This document shows, in pieces, positions 1-63,489 of a stretch of DNA of 64,000 nt (its first letter is position 1; each line of letters opens with the position of its first letter). The stretch spans positions 24,456 to 88,455 of the forward strand of contig NZ_KN882175.1 of the NCBI RefSeq assembly GCF_000934755.1. Direction: 5' to 3'. This stretch comes from Desulfonatronovibrio magnus. GTDB lineage: Bacteria > Desulfobacterota > Desulfovibrionia > Desulfovibrionales > Desulfonatronovibrionaceae. The position numbers and the translations under genes were made by a program. The notes beneath the pieces were generated by a model. That model was not told where the DNA came from. It saw only the letters and a list, made by a program, of their open reading frames with translations, and did no database searches.

Positions 1-500
1 CGCCAGGCACAGGGACTGTCCCTCGCTGTGTAAATTTTTTCATTTAAGCAAATTTTTCCAGGAACCAATGCAGCATCAATCTTTTTTATAGTACCTCGCG
101 GGGACTGTCCCAATTTTCAGAAAAGTGACAGACCCGTAAAGTTACTCGCAGGTTCGGTCCCGGTCCCCGGATGAGGAGCTTACAAGTAACTGGAATTGTA
201 TTGCCAATAAAATCAGATGCTTACAGTTTTCACATTTTCTCGATTTTTGCTTATGATTGATGCACATTTGCCAGAAAAGTTTCGTCAAAGATGGGAGCTT
301 TGCGCCAGGCACAGGGACTGTCCCTCGCTGTGTAAATTTTTTCATTTAAGCAAATTTTTCCAGGAACCAATGCAGCATCAATCTTTTTTATAGTACCTCG
401 CGGGGACTGTCCAAATTTTCAGAAAAGTGACAGACTCGTAAAGTTACTCGCAGGTTCGGTCCAGGGCCGCCCGGGTGAGGAGCTTACAAGTAACTACAAT
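1..500 (+). repeat. Two tandem copies of repeat module A
   Basis: The stretch beginning CGCCAGGCACAGGGACTGTC at 1 recurs at 303, giving a 302-bp tandem period. Each unit holds two odd palindromes of the form GGGACTGTCCC (12-22 and 101-111 in the first unit; the second box of the second unit is mutated at 403-413), then a GGTTCGGTCC...GTGAGGAGCTTACAAGTAACT junction (module D). The first copy is cut by the window edge. Other copies of module A lie near 26.5, 40.3, 42.2, 52.4, 62.6 and 63.2 kb (plus) and 16.9 and 45.3 kb (minus). No coding capacity is convincing. Confidence 0.9.
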
Positions 501-3825: not shown

Positions 3826-3941
3826 GATTATGACGGCTTGGAACGGCTTCCTGCCCGGAGGATTACAGCCCGGAGGGGGACTGTCCCTGGCTTCGGAACT
3901 GTCTCCAATTGACTTTTCAGAAACGCTTAATGCTCCCGCCT
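3826..3941 (-). mobile_element. Truncated copy of the 24-bp-TIR element
   Basis: Reading on the minus strand, GGGAGCATTAAGCGTTTCTG starts at 3941 and the match to the intact elements at 24451 and 59066 continues to about 3826 (CCGTCATAATCGGG), where it stops before the second inverted end. It carries the 30-bp CCTGCCCGGAGG...CCCGGAGGG hairpin module inside. I infer a decayed or truncated insertion. Confidence 0.75.
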
Positions 3942-4284: not shown

Positions 4285-4440
4285 TTAACGCTTTTTTAAA
4301 CATCAAAGGGACAGGTGCTCCGGAACCCATTTGAGCATAATTTTGCATGAAGAATAAGTCTTTTCTGGGCAAGCAAGACCCGGAAGAGCCAGTCCCCCTC
4401 CGGGCTGTATGCCTCCGGGCAGGAAGCCGTGCCACATGTA
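4285..4440. repeat. REPIN-like hairpin element
   Basis: GGGACAGGTGCTCCGGAACCC pairs imperfectly with GACCCGGAAGAGCCAGTCCCC around a loop, followed by the 30-bp CTCCGGGCTGTATGCCTCCGGG module and GGAAGCCGTGCCACATG. Close relatives lie at 26796-26886 and 52652-52785. The layout resembles REP doublets mobilised by REP-associated tyrosine transposases, but no such transposase is in the window. Confidence 0.6.
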
Positions 4441-4452
4441 AAGGTTTAATCT

Positions 4453-4655
4453 AATGCGGGCTGTGCCCACAACCCAATTTAAACAAGAATAGTTAAGTTT
4501 GGGCGATAACCTTATTTTTCAGGTTGAAGGCTGAAGGTCGAAGGTCGAAGGCTGAAGGCTGAAGAATAAGGATCTTGGGCATCATTGCTCTTTCAAGATT
4601 AAATGAATTTCTTGTTTTTTTCTACAGGATTGAAAGGGTAAGTTACTAAGCTTTT
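4453..4655 (+). repeat. Repeat module E with GAAGGCT heptamer array
   Basis: The module runs from AATGCGGGCTGTGCCCACAA through GAATAGTTAAGTTTGGGCGA to GAATAAGGATCTTGGGCATC and ends GGATTGAAAGGGTAAGTTAC. Inside, 4524-4564 is a heptanucleotide array (GAAGGCT/GAAGGTC, about five units plus a partial). The copy at 5583-5760 has only about two units, so array length differs between copies. Confidence 0.85.
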
Positions 4656-4898
4656 TCCGCGACCTTGCACGAAAAAAGTGGCCCCTTCAAGGCAGCTTCA
4701 GGTAAACCTATGAATGACGGATTGAGCACGGGGACTGGCTCTCCCGGCATTTATTTTTCTAATTTGTTTCTTGCTCAATAAAAAATAAGTGCCGGGGTGC
4801 CTGTCCCCACAAACATGAAAGCAAGGATTTTTAACAACCAACATGTTTGTTTGAAATTTCCACTAAGCGCCTAATACATTTTTGAAGGAGAAAATGCC

Positions 4899-16869: not shown

Positions 16870-17130
16870 GAACCTCCTCACCCGGGCGGCCCGGGACCGA
16901 ACTTGTGAGTAACTGAAAATGAGTCTCCTCTATGGACATTGGGACAGTCCCCGCGAGGTACTATAAAACAGATTGATGCTGCATTGGTTCCTGGAAGAAA
17001 TTTGCTTCAATGGAAAAATTTACATAGCGAGGGACAGTCCCTGTGCCAGGCGCAAAGTTCTCATCTTTGACGGAACTTTTCTGGCAAATGTGCATCAATC
17101 ATGAGCAAAAATCGTAAAAACTTGAAACAG
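16870..17130 (-). repeat. Repeat modules D and A, minus orientation
   Basis: CTCACCCGGGCGGCCCGGGA (module D hairpin) is followed by GGGACAGTCCC boxes at about 16942 and 17032 and the conserved TGATGCTGCATTGGTTCCTG core. It is the reverse complement of the copy at 42190-42495. Confidence 0.88.
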
Positions 17131-17271: not shown

Positions 17272-17318
17272 GAATCTTCAACCTTCAACCTTCAGCCTTC
17301 AACCTCAGCCTTCAGCCT

Positions 17319-17321
<3 letters not shown>
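17272..17321. repeat. CTTCAGC heptamer array at the 3' end of tgt
   Basis: About six 7-base units alternating CTTCAAC and CTTCAGC (one is 6 bases) run up to and include the tgt stop codon (TGA at 17321-17319 on the minus strand). The unit is the complement of the GAAGGCT unit in module E. Confidence 0.8.
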
Positions 17322-18443
<1,122 letters not shown>

Positions 18444-24450: not shown

Positions 24451-24614
24451 GGGAGCATTACGCGTTTCTGAAAAGTCAATAGGGGAAAGTCCCCCTCCGG
24501 GCTGTAAGCCTCCAGGCAGGAAGCCGTGCCGAGCCGTCATAATCAGGTTTAAACCTCAAAACAGGCCTGACATTCAAATCAAAATTAAAGTTTCCAGAAA
24601 CGCGTAATGCTCCC
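24451..24614. mobile_element. Short nonautonomous transposable element with 24-bp inverted ends and 9-bp target duplication
   Basis: The left end 24451-24474 starts GGGAGCATTACGCGTTTCTG and the right end 24591-24614 ends with its complement with one mismatch. Directly outside lie AACTGACAA (24442-24450) and AACTGACAA (24615-24623), a perfect 9-bp duplication. Inside is the CTCCGGGCTGTAAGCCTCC hairpin module and GTGCCGAGCCGTCATAATC. There is no room for a transposase, so a transposase elsewhere must move it. Confidence 0.9.
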
Positions 24615-26412: not shown

Positions 26413-26449
26413 AGCCAGACAATATCTGTTCAGTGCGTTGCATCTGACA

Positions 26450-26790
26450 AGTAGCTATAATCGTTTTGCTAATAAAATCAAATGTTTACAATTTTAACAT
26501 TTTTACGATTTTTGCTTATGAATGATGCACATTTGCCAGAAAAGTTCCGTCAAAGCTGGGAGCTTTGCGCCTGGCACAGCTTCCTGCCCGGAGGCTTACA
26601 GCCCGGAGGGGGACTGTCCCTCGCTGTGTCAATTTTTTCATTAAAGCAAATTTCTTCCAGGAACCAATGCAGCGTCAAGCTTTTTTATAGTACCTCGCGG
26701 GGACTGTCCCAATTTCCAGAAAAGTGACAGACTCTTAAAGTTACTCACAGGTTCGGTCCCGGGCCGCCCGGGTGAGGAGCTTTTAAGGAA
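26450..26790 (+). repeat. Repeat modules A and D with the 30-bp hairpin inserted
   Basis: It carries the module A core (TGATGCACATTTGCCAGAAA, GGGACTGTCCCTCGC, CCAGGAACCAATGCAGC, GCGGGGACTGTCCC) and a canonical module D hairpin. Between GGCACAG and GGGACTG it contains an extra 30 bases (CTTCCTGCCCGGAGG...CAGCCCGGAGG) that are absent from the copies at 1, 303, 42.2, 52.4, 62.6 and 63.2 kb. Confidence 0.88.
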
Positions 26791-26795
26791 AGCAG

Positions 26796-26917
26796 GGGAC
26801 AGGCACTCCGGGACCCACTTGATCATCAATTTGTACTCAAAATGACTCATTTTTGGGACAAGTGGGTCCCGGAAGAGCCAGTCCCCAATTGACTTTTCAA
26901 AAGCGCGTAATGCTCCC
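26796..26917. mobile_element. REPIN-like hairpin fused to one end of the 24-bp-TIR element
   Basis: GGGGACAGGCACTCCGGGAC and CCACTTG pair with CAAGTGGGTCCCGGAAGAGC and CAGTCCCC (26798-26886). Directly joined is AATTGACTTTTCAAAAGCGC and GTAATGCTCCC, the reversed left end of the element at 59066, ending at 26917, one base before the larC stop codon. No target duplication can be recognised because the other end is missing. Confidence 0.7.
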
Positions 26918-33146: not shown

Positions 33147-33250
33147 ACCCCCCTGATCTCTGCCCCCCGACCTCTGACCTCCGCCCCCTGCCCTCTGACC
33201 CCTGACTTCTGACCCCTGATCTCTGACCTCTGCCTTCTGACCTCTGACAA
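33147..33250. repeat. CTCTGAC heptamer array abutting the umuC stop codon
   Basis: About 14 degenerate 7-base units (CTCTGAC, CCCTGAC, TTCTGAC, CCCTGAT and CTCTGCC types) fill the space between the symporter terminator and the umuC stop at 33251. On the minus strand this reads as arginine/glycine-rich junk, not a gene. Confidence 0.85.
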
Positions 33251-40159: not shown

Positions 40160-40262
40160 ATGGTTACCACTAATGTGGGCTGCGCCTACAGCGTTAAAGG
40201 CTGAAGGCGGAAGGCGGAAGAATAGGGGGCTTGGGCATCACTGCTCTTTCAAGTAACTGGAA
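40160..40262 (+). repeat. Module E fragment
   Basis: TAATGTGGGCTGCGCCTACA, about four GAAGGCG/GAAGGCT units (40196-40218), GAATAGGGGGCTTGGGCATC and GCTCTTTCAAGTAACT match the middle of module E. It runs straight into module A. Confidence 0.75.
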
Positions 40263-40595
40263 TCGTTTTGATAATAAATTCAAATGGTTACAATTTTCAC
40301 ATTTTTATGATTTTTGCTTATGATTCATGCACATTTGCCAGCAAAGTTCCGTCAAAGATGGGAACTTTGTGCCTGGCACAGCTTCCTGCCCGGAGGCTTA
40401 CAGCCCGGAGGGGGACTGTCCCTCGCTGTGTAAATTTTGTCATCAAAGAAAATCTCTTCCAGGAACCAATGCAGCATCAATCTTTTTTAAAGTACCTCGC
40501 GGGGACTGTCCCAATTTCCAGAAAAGTGACAGTATCCTATAGTTACTCGCAGGTTCGGTCCCGGGCCGCCCGGGTGAGGAGCTTTCAAGTAACTG
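40256..40595 (+). repeat. Repeat modules A and D with the 30-bp hairpin inserted
   Basis: The same build as 26450-26790, including the CTTCCTGCCCGGAGGCTTAC hairpin between GGCACAG and GGGACTGTCCC. Confidence 0.88.
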
Positions 40596-40640
40596 GAATC
40601 GTTTTGATAATAAAATCAGGTTATTATGGCTTTACCATAT

Positions 40641-42160: not shown

Positions 42161-42189
42161 TCCCGGGCCGCCCGGGTGAGAAGCTTACA

Positions 42190-42495
42190 AGCAACTATAG
42201 TCGTTTTGCTAATAAAATCAGACGTTTATAATTTTCATATTTTTACGATTTTTGCCTATGATACATGAACATTTGCCAGAAAATTTCCGTCAAAGATGAG
42301 AGCTTTGCGCCTGGCACAGGGACTGTCCCTCGCTGTGTAAATTTTTCCATTTAAGCAAATTTCTTCCAGGAACCAATGCAGCATCAATCTTTTTTATAGT
42401 ACCTCGCGGGGACTGTCCCAATGTCCATAGAGGAGACTCATTTTCAGTTACTCGAAGGTTCGGTCCCGGTCCCTCCGGGTGAGGAGCTTCCAAGT
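42190..42495 (+). repeat. Repeat modules A and D without the 30-bp hairpin
   Basis: GGCACAGGGACTGTCCCTCG is uninterrupted here. The module D hairpin is CCCGG-TCCCT-CCGGG. Confidence 0.88.
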
Positions 42496-42539
42496 AACTT
42501 CAAAAAAAACTGGACCCCGGATCAAGTCCGTGGTGACGG

Positions 42540-42725
42540 TTAAAGCAAGTTTTTACTCTTTACCGTCATTCCGGCGAAAGCCGGAATCCAGGCTTTGGTA
42601 TGAAGAAGCGGCTGGAGCCGCAAGAGTAAGACGTCCCCAGGCTGGAGCCTGGGAACGAGGGGTATAAGCTACTCACACGTTCGGTCCCGGGCCGCCAGGG
42701 TGAGGAGCTTCTAAACAACTATAAT
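42540..42725 (+). repeat. Partial repeat with modules C and D
   Basis: TTTACCGTCATTCCGGCGAA and GCCGGAATCC form a dyad, followed by GCGGCTGGAGCCGC, CCCAGGCTGGAGCCTGGG, and CGGTCCCGGGCCGCCAGGGT. It is joined to the tail of the copy at 42190-42495. Confidence 0.75.
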
Positions 42726-45204: not shown

Positions 45205-45259
45205 CCTAAGGTAAAGCTATAAACATCCGATTTTATTAGCAAAATGATTGTAGTTACTT

Positions 45260-45605
45260 AGAAGCTCCTCACCCGGGCGGACCGGGACCGAACCTGCGAG
45301 TAACTCTAAGAGTCTGTCACTTTTTTGGAAATTGGGACAGTCCCCGCGAGGTGCTACAAACAAGACTGATGCTGCATTGGTTCCTGGAAAAAATTTGCTT
45401 AAATGATAAAATTTACACAGCGAGGGACAGTCCCCCTCCGGGCTGTAAGCCTCCGGGCAGGAAGCTGTGCCAGGCGCAAGGTTCCCATCTTTGATGGAAC
45501 TTTTCAGGAAATTGAGAATCAATCATATGTAAAAATTATAAAAATTGTGAAAATTATAACCGTCTGATTTCATTAGAAAAACGATTATAGTTACTTGTAA
45601 GAAGC
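45260..45605 (-). repeat. Repeat modules D and A with the 30-bp hairpin, minus orientation
   Basis: CACCCGGGCGGACCGGGACC, GGGACAGTCCCCGCGAGG, the TGATGCTGCATTGGTTCCTG core, GGGACAGTCCCCCTCCGGGC with the 30-bp hairpin, and CAAGGTTCCCATCTTTGATG. Confidence 0.88.
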
Positions 45606-50999: not shown

Positions 51000-51150
51000 T
51001 CAGCTTGAGTTTTACAATTATTTGATTTTAAACTTAAAACCTTAACTTTAAACTTAAATCTTAAAACTTTAAACTTTAAACTTAAAACTTTAAACTTTAA
51101 ACTTTAAACTTAAAACCTAAAACTGAAATCTTAAAACTTAAAACTCAAAA
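51000..51150 (+). repeat. TTAAACT heptamer-like array upstream of speY
   Basis: Units of 7-8 bases (AAACTTT, AAACTTA, AAAACTT, AAATCTT types) repeat from about 51029 to 51146. This occupies the whole space where the speY promoter should lie. A shorter array with the same unit lies at 61045-61078. Confidence 0.8.
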
Positions 51151-51207
51151 CCGCCTGCCAAAATTTACTTTTTGCAGACACATCACACATCAAAACAGGT
51201 ACATAAC

Positions 51208-52293: not shown

Positions 52294-52334
52294 ACACTGG
52301 TCAGGATATTAATGACGTATCTGCTTAGCGCTTA

Positions 52335-52640
52335 CAAGCAACTGGAATCGTTTTGATAATAAAATCAGACGGTTACAATTTTCACATTTTTACGATTTTT
52401 GCTCATGATTGATGCACATTTGCCAGTAAAGTTCCGTCAAAGATGGGAACTTTGCACTTGGCACAGGGACTGTCCCTCGCTGTGTAAATTTTTCCATTGA
52501 AGCAAATTTCTTCCAGGAACCAATGCAGGATCAATCTTTTTTATAGTACCTCGCGGGGACTGTCCCAATTTCCAGAAAAGTGACAGATTCTTAAAGTTAC
52601 TCGCAGGTTCGGTCCTGGTCCGCCCAGGTGAGGAGCTTTT
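52335..52640 (+). repeat. Repeat modules A and D without the 30-bp hairpin
   Basis: The core blocks TGATGCACATTTGCCAGTAA, GGGACTGTCCCTCGC and GCGGGGACTGTCCC are present. The module D stem here reads CCTGG-TCCGC-CCAGG, a paired change from CCCGG/CCGGG. Confidence 0.88.
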
Positions 52641-52649
52641 AAGGAAAGC

Positions 52650-52790
52650 AGGGGACAGGCACTCCGGGACCCACTTGAACATCATTTTGTGCTTAAAATC
52701 TCTCATTTTTTGGGACAAGTGGGTCCCGGAAGAGCCAGTCCCCCTCCGGGCTGTATGCCTCCGGGCAGGAAGCCATGCCACATGCAAAGC
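52650..52790 (+). repeat. REPIN-like element with the 30-bp hairpin
   Basis: GGGACAGGCACTCCGGGACC and CACTTG pair with CAAGTGGGTCCCGGAAGAGC and CAGTCCCC, followed by CTCCGGGCTGTATGCCTCCG and GGAAGCCATGCC. It is nearly identical to 26796-26882 through the first part. Confidence 0.75.
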
Positions 52791-52827
52791 GCTAAACAGA
52801 TACTTAATGACATTTTTGAATTAAACA

Positions 52828-59065: not shown

Positions 59066-59216
59066 GGGAGCATTACGCATTTCTGAAAAGTCAATTGGGG
59101 ACAGTCCCGAAGCCAGGGACAGTCCCCGTGCCAAGCCGTCACAATCGGGTTTTAAGTCCAAAATAGCTAAGACATACAGCTCGAATTTATAGTTTTCAGA
59201 AATGCGTAATGCTCCC
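59066..59216. mobile_element. Short nonautonomous transposable element, perfect 24-bp inverted ends, 9-bp target duplication
   Basis: The left end 59066-59089 (GGGAGCATTACGCATTTCTG...) and right end 59193-59216 are exact complements over 24 bases. GTTAATGGT flanks it on both sides (59057-59065 and 59217-59225). The interior holds GGGGACAGTCCC and CAGGGACAGTCCCCGTGCC hairpins. The ends are shared with 24451-24614, but the middle differs. Confidence 0.92.
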
Positions 59217-62443: not shown

Positions 62444-62559
62444 TAGTGACTGCCGATTTTAAGCAACTTAAATCTTATATAAGCAAAATCAGATGGTTAC
62501 ATTTTCAAGTTTTTTAAAATTTTTACTTCTAAGTAACTAAAACCAAATTATCAACAAAA

Positions 62560-62845
62560 TCAGACGGTTATAGTTTTCACAATTTTAAGATTTTTACATA
62601 TGATTGATTCTCAATTACCAGAAAAGTTCCGTCAAAGATGAGAGCTTTGCGCCTGGCACAGGGACTGTCCCTCGCTGTGTAAATTTTTTCATTTAAGCAA
62701 ATTTTTTCCAGGAACCAATGCAGTATCATGCTTTATTATAGTACCTTGCGGGGACTGTCCCAATTTCCAGAAAAGTGACAGACTCGTAAAGTTACTCACA
62801 GGTTCGGTCCCGGGCCGCCCGGGTGAGGAGCTTCTAAGTAACTAA
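62560..62845 (+). repeat. Repeat modules A and D between ccmF and ccmA (first copy)
   Basis: AGCTTTGCGCCTGGCACAGG, GGGACTGTCCC boxes at about 62662 and 62751, and a canonical CCCGGGCCGCCCGGG module D. Confidence 0.88.
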
Positions 62846-62889
62846 AGCCAAATTAGCAATAAATTCAGAGCATTATGGTTTTACCTTAC

Positions 62890-63170: not shown

Positions 63171-63179
63171 GTGCTTACA

Positions 63180-63450
63180 GGTAACTACAATCGTTTTGAT
63201 AATAAAATCAGATGGTTACAGTTTTCATGTTTTTACGATTTTTGCTTATGATTCATGCACATTTGCCTTAAAAGTTCCGTCAAAGATGGGAACTTTGCGC
63301 TTGGCACAAGGTCTGTCCCTCGCTGTGTATATTTTATCATTAAACCCAATTTCTTCCAGGAACCAATGCAGCATCAATCTGTTTTATAGTACCTCGCGGG
63401 GACTGTCCCAATTTCCAGAAAAGTGAAAGTTCTTCAATGTGGAGGCGGCT
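63180..63450 (+). repeat. Module A between ccmF and ccmA (second copy)
   Basis: GTAACTACAATCGTTTTGAT, GCACATTTGCC, GGTCTGTCCCTCGCTGTG (box mutated) and GCGGGGACTGTCCC. Its tail diverges before module D. Confidence 0.85.
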
Positions 63451-63489
63451 TATCGCAGGTTTGATCCTGCCCCCATGATGAAGGTTTTT

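Follow-up and report, generated by a model that had tools for sequence, protein, structure and literature searches.

Does a very short sequence that is present in some copies of a repeat, and absent at the same spot from others, move by itself, or is it passed on by the repeats that carry it? The question is raised by the window, the whole 64,000-nucleotide stretch of Desulfonatronovibrio magnus, a sulfate reducer of the soda-lake type, analysed here (C114:24456-88455 of a 4,809,662-bp draft in 134 contigs), in which an earlier note had pointed out a 30-bp hairpin module. We confirmed that this observation is real and larger than reported: a 31-base cassette is present or cleanly absent at one exact spot in several unrelated repeat families. 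It seems to be passed on mainly by copying and recombination within each family, not by jumping of its own.

The cassette and its junction

The module consists of CTTCCTGCCCGGAGG followed by CTTACAGCCCGGAGG, with CATACAG in place of CTTACAG in one host family, and is thus made of direct units, not of a palindrome or an inverted doublet. The filled site reads GGCACRG-CTTCCTGCCCGGAGG-CTTACAGCCCGGAGG-GGGACTG and the empty site GGCACRGGGACTG; the cassette is therefore two 15-bp direct units plus one G. The scarless presence or absence described in the earlier note is precise, the net indel being 31 and not 30 bp. The window holds the following copies, sites and host elements (the three host A elements were delimited with nhmmer).

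26580..26609, plus strand: module, CTTACAG form, filled site in host A
40382..40411, plus strand: module, filled site in host A
45435..45464, minus strand: module, filled site in host A
3847..3876, plus strand: filled host B (MITE) site with the ATTACAG variant of the module
24494..24523, minus strand: filled host B (MITE) site whose module has a single C-to-T substitution
4397..4426, minus strand: module, CATACAG form, filled site in host C
52743..52772, minus strand: filled host C site with a CATACAG-form module; every one of the C copies closest to it in identity is empty
26442..26790, plus strand: host A element, filled
40246..40596, plus strand: host A element, filled
45248..45601, minus strand: host A element, filled
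6..22, plus strand: empty site GGCACAGGGACTGTCCC in host A (1-193)
308..324, plus strand: empty site in host A (175-500)
4724..4741, plus strand: empty site of host D (GAGCACGGGGACTGGCTC), with filled D copies in G006
17031..17047, minus strand: empty site in host A (16870-17128), absent from the earlier list
42313..42329, plus strand: empty site in host A (42179-42589)
52460..52476, plus strand: empty site in host A (52330-52646)
62655..62671, plus strand: empty site in host A (62527-62846)
63303..63319, plus strand: empty, mutated site GGCACAAGGTCTGTCCC in host A (63173-63479)
59066..59216, minus strand: empty host B MITE of 151 bp with a target duplication of 9 bp, ACCATTAAC; site at 59116-59132
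24451..24614, minus strand: filled host B MITE of 164 bp, in which the part separating the two GGGACTGTCCC copies is missing
52637..52803, minus strand: host C element, filled; right end fused to a host A end

The modules called in A at 26.6, 40.4 and 45.4 kb were all found, as were the empty A sites at positions 1 and 303 and at 42.3, 52.5, 62.7 and 63.3 kb; two empty copies had been missed, one of A at 17.0 kb (minus strand) and one of B at 59.1 kb. What had been described as a mobile element (24.5 and 3.9 kb) corresponds to B MITEs, and the REPIN-like elements said to hold the same module (4.4 and 52.7 kb) are C elements that do hold it, with CATACAG for CTTACAG.

Chance does not explain these copies: the 13-base core has 9 matches in the window at up to 2 mismatches, against 0.79 expected, and none of 100 shuffles reached 9. 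Genome-wide, the module occurs in 224 copies at up to 3 mismatches (reversed control, 0). Over the whole genome, the 17-base empty pattern has 149 exact matches, the 48-base filled pattern 111 and the one-unit pattern 7 (2 more with mismatches), figures that give no ratio because the pattern lengths differ; one-unit sites have A-, B- or C-type flanks. Sites were then counted in a sample of 853,712 bp, composed of the window and 40 further stretches (18% of the genome). Between TGGCACRG and GGGACTG the gap was 2 bases at 50 sites, 33 at 74, and 3, 18, 32 and 34 at one site each, the remaining gaps being taken as neighbouring repeats or chance and left uncounted. TGGCACRG^GGGACTG is hence near-strictly two-state in the sample: 51 empty, 76 filled (74 by exactly 31 bp and 2 within 1 bp) and 1 one-unit site. 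Insertion into this short, defined target is precise, with a gap of either 2 or 33 bases, 31 bp apart. No site has three units, the numbers being 51 with none, 1 with one and 76 with two, and simple tandem-repeat slippage was rejected, since the ladder of unit numbers expected from it is absent from these 128 sites.

The module keeps to its site. Of 83 module matches sampled, 82 lie inside a host site as judged by eye and the other is truncated; apart from that one, none was seen elsewhere in the sample. GGGACTG sites without GGCACRG at their left, such as the second one in A and B, have no module, bar truncated copies. The module itself has no terminal inverted repeats (TIRs), and its target duplication is at most one G. 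The hairpin label of the earlier note proved weak: the 30-mer folds no better than its dinucleotide shuffles (RNA z 0.32, DNA z -0.94), and a hairpin was rejected as the defining property. No Rfam family reached the gathering score in the window.

Host families and their distribution

Both states occur in host families A, B and C. Family A repeats are about 320 bp long and at times stand in tandem; B and C are MITEs of about 140-184 bp with TIRs and 8-9 bp duplications. B ends in GGGAGCATTACGC, with duplications of 8 or 9 bp, and C in GTATCTGTTTAGC or GTAACAGTTTAGC, with duplications of 8 bp; these were present in 12 of 34 end pairs for B and 28 of 49 for C, most elements being counted once per strand, so that elements number about half as many. 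The lengths reflect the two states: B copies measure mostly 151-153 bp when empty and 180-184 bp when filled, besides two deletion forms of 113 and 164 bp, and C copies 141 or 150-151 bp when empty and 172 or 181-182 bp when filled, a step of 31 in each subfamily. The fourth family, D, has the junction TTGAGCACGG^GGGACTGGCTCTCCCGGCA, filled in G006 and empty in the window at 4.73 kb.

In the sample, A has 47 filled, 25 empty and 1 one-unit copy. B has 10 filled and 10 called empty (a set that includes one mis-hit of an A element), plus 1 empty with GGCACGGAGACTG, and C has 13 filled and 20 called empty (several of them without the C-type left arm), plus 3 that differ by 1-2 bases at the G run. 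In a cross-table that covers classes other than empty A sites, no clear chimera of A, B and C was seen at the GGCACRG junction. An autonomous partner of B and C was sought between TIR pairs 0.7-4 kb apart, and none of the longest open reading frames was taken up, by eye, as a transposase.

Several arrangements were noted alongside. At 26775-26905 and 52640-52660 of the window, a host A end, GAGGAGCTTTTAAG, is fused to a host C right arm, GGAAAGCAGGGGACAGGC; at 26.88 kb this composite continues, the C arm running into a host B end. Another repeat (GATTGCTTCGGTCGCTTAGGCTC...GGGTGACAG) adjoins several A copies (window ~540, 40640, 45200 and 62890), and tandem repeats with a period of 7 or 14 bp (AGGCTGA, CTTCAGC, GACCCCTGACCTCT, AAACTTA) lie at 4521-4564, 17276-17322, 33160-33248 and 51030-51151. 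Some filled copies lack the stretch between two GGGACTGTCCC repeats (L027, near 1501, and L087:12483 in A; L057:9913 in B); the loss, about 90 bp in A, matches a deletion between direct repeats.

Outside this genome, the module is found in the sister genus Desulfonatronospira, a different genus of the same family according to a kinship table: counting either variant at 1 mismatch, there are 24 copies in G006, 7 in G009, 2 in G012 and 1 in G015. Both states are present in G006 and in G009, an assembly of 5 contigs. Among named genomes, the exact module was found only in the metagenome-assembled genome (MAG) Desulfonatronospira sp. CSSed11_143, placed in Desulfonatronovibrionaceae by treekit; it is the same genome as G006, as shown by 3,023 bp of identical sequence between the loci L037 and L093. 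The five other genomes of the own genus have no module at up to 2 mismatches, and one congener, G002, lacks the module and shows 31 sites in the empty state. A search of 395 genomes of the phylum, the own one included, returned a two-mismatch look-alike in only two others, G108 and G071, which represent one distant genus of another family; this 30-mer may be a chance match. The loci concerned (L127-L131) are arrays of module-like 15-bp units such as CTTCCAGCCCGTAGGCTTACAGGCCGGAGG in a different context. Viral contigs gave no exact match to the module, and plasmid and phage collections no match to host A. We found no paper on this repeat in a literature search that mostly covered journals outside subscription.

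Two observations concern G009. Near-identical empty C elements lie at many of its sites (L191-L201), a sign of recent activity of the empty form. One of its loci (G009:C1:767718-770090) is about 100% identical over 2.4 kb to L088 of G015 (G015:C71:1-2373), including the module in a C element; the two genomes are assigned to different species, and the identity may reflect contamination or recent transfer.

Module variants, linkage and trees

The variant of the module follows the host family. In the own sample, all 51 A copies are CTT, 9 of 10 B copies are CTT and 1 is ATT, and 16 of 17 C copies are CAT and 1 is GAT (3 unassigned copies and 1 deletion form set aside). In the other genomes, C is CAT in 4 of 4 copies, and B (4) and D (4) are CTT in 8 of 8 (2 unassigned copies and 1 odd match set aside). 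The variant thus crosses between C and A/B/D in no case, in two genera. Free hopping among sites would mix the variants, so it is not supported by this tie between variant and family.

Within A, the state of the junction is poorly tied to its surroundings. Among 70 copies with full flanks (43 filled, 26 empty, 1 one-unit), the state of a copy is that of its closest sequence neighbour in 43 cases, about 36 being expected. None of the flanking sites predicts the state (highest r2, 0.153), nor is there a significant association with the right-end type (Fisher p 0.32). In the left block, linkage falls from an r2 of 0.16 at less than 5 bp to 0.05 by 35-60 bp (about 0.017 when shuffled), and across blocks it is near the shuffle level. 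Because linkage decays fast and the flanks are non-predictive, A copies seem to exchange short tracts, module state included. The unlinking of state from flanks and the decay of linkage within tens of bases point to gene conversion among the copies, although no tract could be traced from a donor to a recipient.

The core varies very little. In 49 filled A copies, mean diversity is 0.008 in the module, 0.023 in the adjoining GGCACAG and 0.011 in CTGTCCCTCGCTGTG, against 0.13-0.15 in the outer flanks, and it is similarly low on the right of empty copies (0.016). The core is conserved with or without the module, so that a recent insertion does not follow from the low diversity alone; being very low in both states, it suggests a core that is recognised by a protein or often converted, and recent spread could be an alternative.

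On trees, which for recombining repeats are a guide only, the minimum number of state changes is 18 for A, 6 for B and 14 for C, against means of 21.2, 6.1 and 17.8 with shuffled labels. B shows no signal of inheritance, and A and C show a weak one: shuffles gave as few changes as observed, or fewer, in 18 of 200 cases for A and in 5 of 200 for C. The A sets leave out copies with short flanks at stretch ends, the tree counts leave out the one-unit copy, and the C trees leave out copies without a C-type left arm; the 63 rows of C stand for 61 distinct copies, L091 and L182 being the same G009 locus, as are L105 and L189. The outcome that the earlier note had named as refuting its proposal, one gain followed by vertical copying only, is not what these trees show.

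Single copies differ from their relatives in both directions. The C copy at 52.74 kb is filled, and its 19 nearest relatives by identity (18 distinct loci), the G009 burst among them, are empty. In the C tree it falls into a three-row clade (96/88) with one empty and one filled copy (L038), and a single gain at this place is not proven because the supported clade holds L038. L045:12770 is empty and its nearest relatives are filled. The filled copy at 52.74 kb and the junction common to four families, for which at least two precise founding events are needed, set a limit to inheritance alone. In the searchable genomes, we found no orthologous locus filled in one genome and empty in another, so excision at a single locus was not seen; the one locus common to G009 and G015 matches over its full length, with the module in both.

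Origin of the two states

We consider it probable, if by some way short of assured, that the cassette goes back to a few precise founding events, followed by copying of the elements and conversion within families. The cassette is optional and lies in a G+C-rich core (TGGCACRG^GGGACTG) that is conserved and that four or more repeat families have in common; it would have entered each family, or been precisely lost from it, only a few times. The non-autonomous hosts would then copy themselves in either state and so spread it, and short-tract gene conversion among the copies of one family would let filled cores overwrite empty ones, and the reverse. It counts against this account that one junction is common to four families, which implies at least two to four independent precise events that conversion within families does not explain; such founding events would have needed precision at the junction and were most likely site-specific insertions, as with SDR or REP elements. 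The weak signal of inheritance in C, the clade that the 52.74-kb copy shares with L038, a low core diversity that could also stem from recent spread, and some chimerism that the draft assembly could add, likewise tell against it. Slippage between the two 8-bp CCCGGAGG repeats is the probable source of the rare one-unit form. We attribute no function in the host cell to the cassette.

The earlier note proposed a nested, site-specific mini-element. Nesting, precision and a single site common to several hosts stand; present-day independent mobility is not supported, the variant never crossing between C and A/B/D and the state recombining in A like other polymorphisms. An active, independently mobile element, for which a transposase or recombinase would act in trans to insert it at GGCACR^GGGACTG and to excise it precisely, with the hosts as mere targets, is a rather unlikely explanation. 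It would account for an exact 31-bp indel at one junction in several families, for filled copies in many C subfamilies, for one filled copy amid empty relatives and for the 31 empty sites of a congener that has no module. It is at odds, besides the strict sorting of variants, with the confinement of all but one, truncated, match to host sites and with a module that has no ends, no TIR and no duplication beyond a possible single G.

The transposase genes argue in the same direction. We read 40 Y1 loci in 8 genomes (10 in the own genome, 30 in seven others), up to about 1.5 kb on each side, and none is flanked by the module, which in one case lies 1.4 kb away. The flanks of RAYT-type genes of the own genome contain no 14-mer repeated at least 8 times in the 18% sample. 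A link to RAYT, for which the earlier note had advised a search, was rejected for the loci read: the Y1_Tnp genes of this and related genomes are flanked neither by the module nor by its site. At L059 (G000:C125:23775-24125), a Y1 transposase domain match lies inside an open frame of 1,221 residues that, from a motif, looks like a DNA methyltransferase as well. We are slightly more doubtful still of the narrower form of the proposal, a two-unit element of 30-31 bp that inserts precisely at GGCACR^GGGACTG in several MITE families and is moved in trans; if true, the module would be a parasite of parasites, among the smallest site-specific mobile DNAs.

That all families had the module ancestrally, the empty sites arising by repeated precise deletion through replication slippage or with the help of a hairpin, is decidedly improbable. 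Filled copies in all four host families agree with it, as do the one-unit forms (7 exact in the whole genome) and the nearby deletions between GGGACTGTCCC repeats (L027, L087:12483). A 31-bp deletion, however, would have no more than 1-2 bp of homology at its ends to act on, and still the product is the same every time; intermediates are rare (1 of 128 sampled sites), the recently amplified C copies of G009 are empty, and G002 has empty sites only. Collapsed or chimeric repeats in the assembly, conceivable in a 134-contig draft with hundreds of similar repeats, are a very improbable source of both states, since a single read would span the indel, the contigs that contain it are long, G009 and G006 also show both states, and many host copies retain their own target duplications.

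REPs and REPINs are defined by their link to RAYT and are palindromes, often inverted doublets; SDR-type elements have a conserved structure with compensatory changes. The A modules, identical in 45 of 49 copies, vary too little to show such changes. Like an SDR, the module is a short dispersed repeat within other repeats, precisely inserted in a short target; of the REP features it has the high copy number (224), without flanking RAYT or palindrome. The nearest precedent that we met is SDR5 (PMC4390886), an SDR of Nostoc and relatives that sits precisely inserted within HIP1 sites, likewise a very short module inside another abundant repeated sequence. Here, by contrast, the host site is about 15 bp and belongs to a small number of families of MITEs or repeats, the cassette consists of two 15-bp units in tandem and gives no structure signal above shuffles, and the organism group is another. 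REP elements inserted in target palindromes, such as GTAG-23 of T. roseum, with hundreds of such palindromes in one genome (PMC3733652), are likewise short repeats whose targets are short and repeated, many of these targets being empty in the same genome; our site, however, lies between two quasi-palindromes and not inside one, the units are direct and not inverted, and no RAYT linkage was found. REPIN/RAYT systems share the short, non-autonomous repeats and the precise absence, reported as excision for REP doublets (PMC3116915), whereas our module is no inverted doublet and has no associated RAYT that we found. Hosts B and C (TIRs, 8-9 bp duplications, about 140-184 bp) are filed as MITEs, unlike the module, which has no TIRs and no target duplication beyond a possible single G and is best described as an SDR-like cassette, with no membership claimed.

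With hundreds of two-state sites in four host families and two genera, the junction is a countable case that allows the insertion of a very short repeat to be distinguished from its precise loss and from gene conversion, and it bears on how elements of 20-40 bp with no coding capacity spread.
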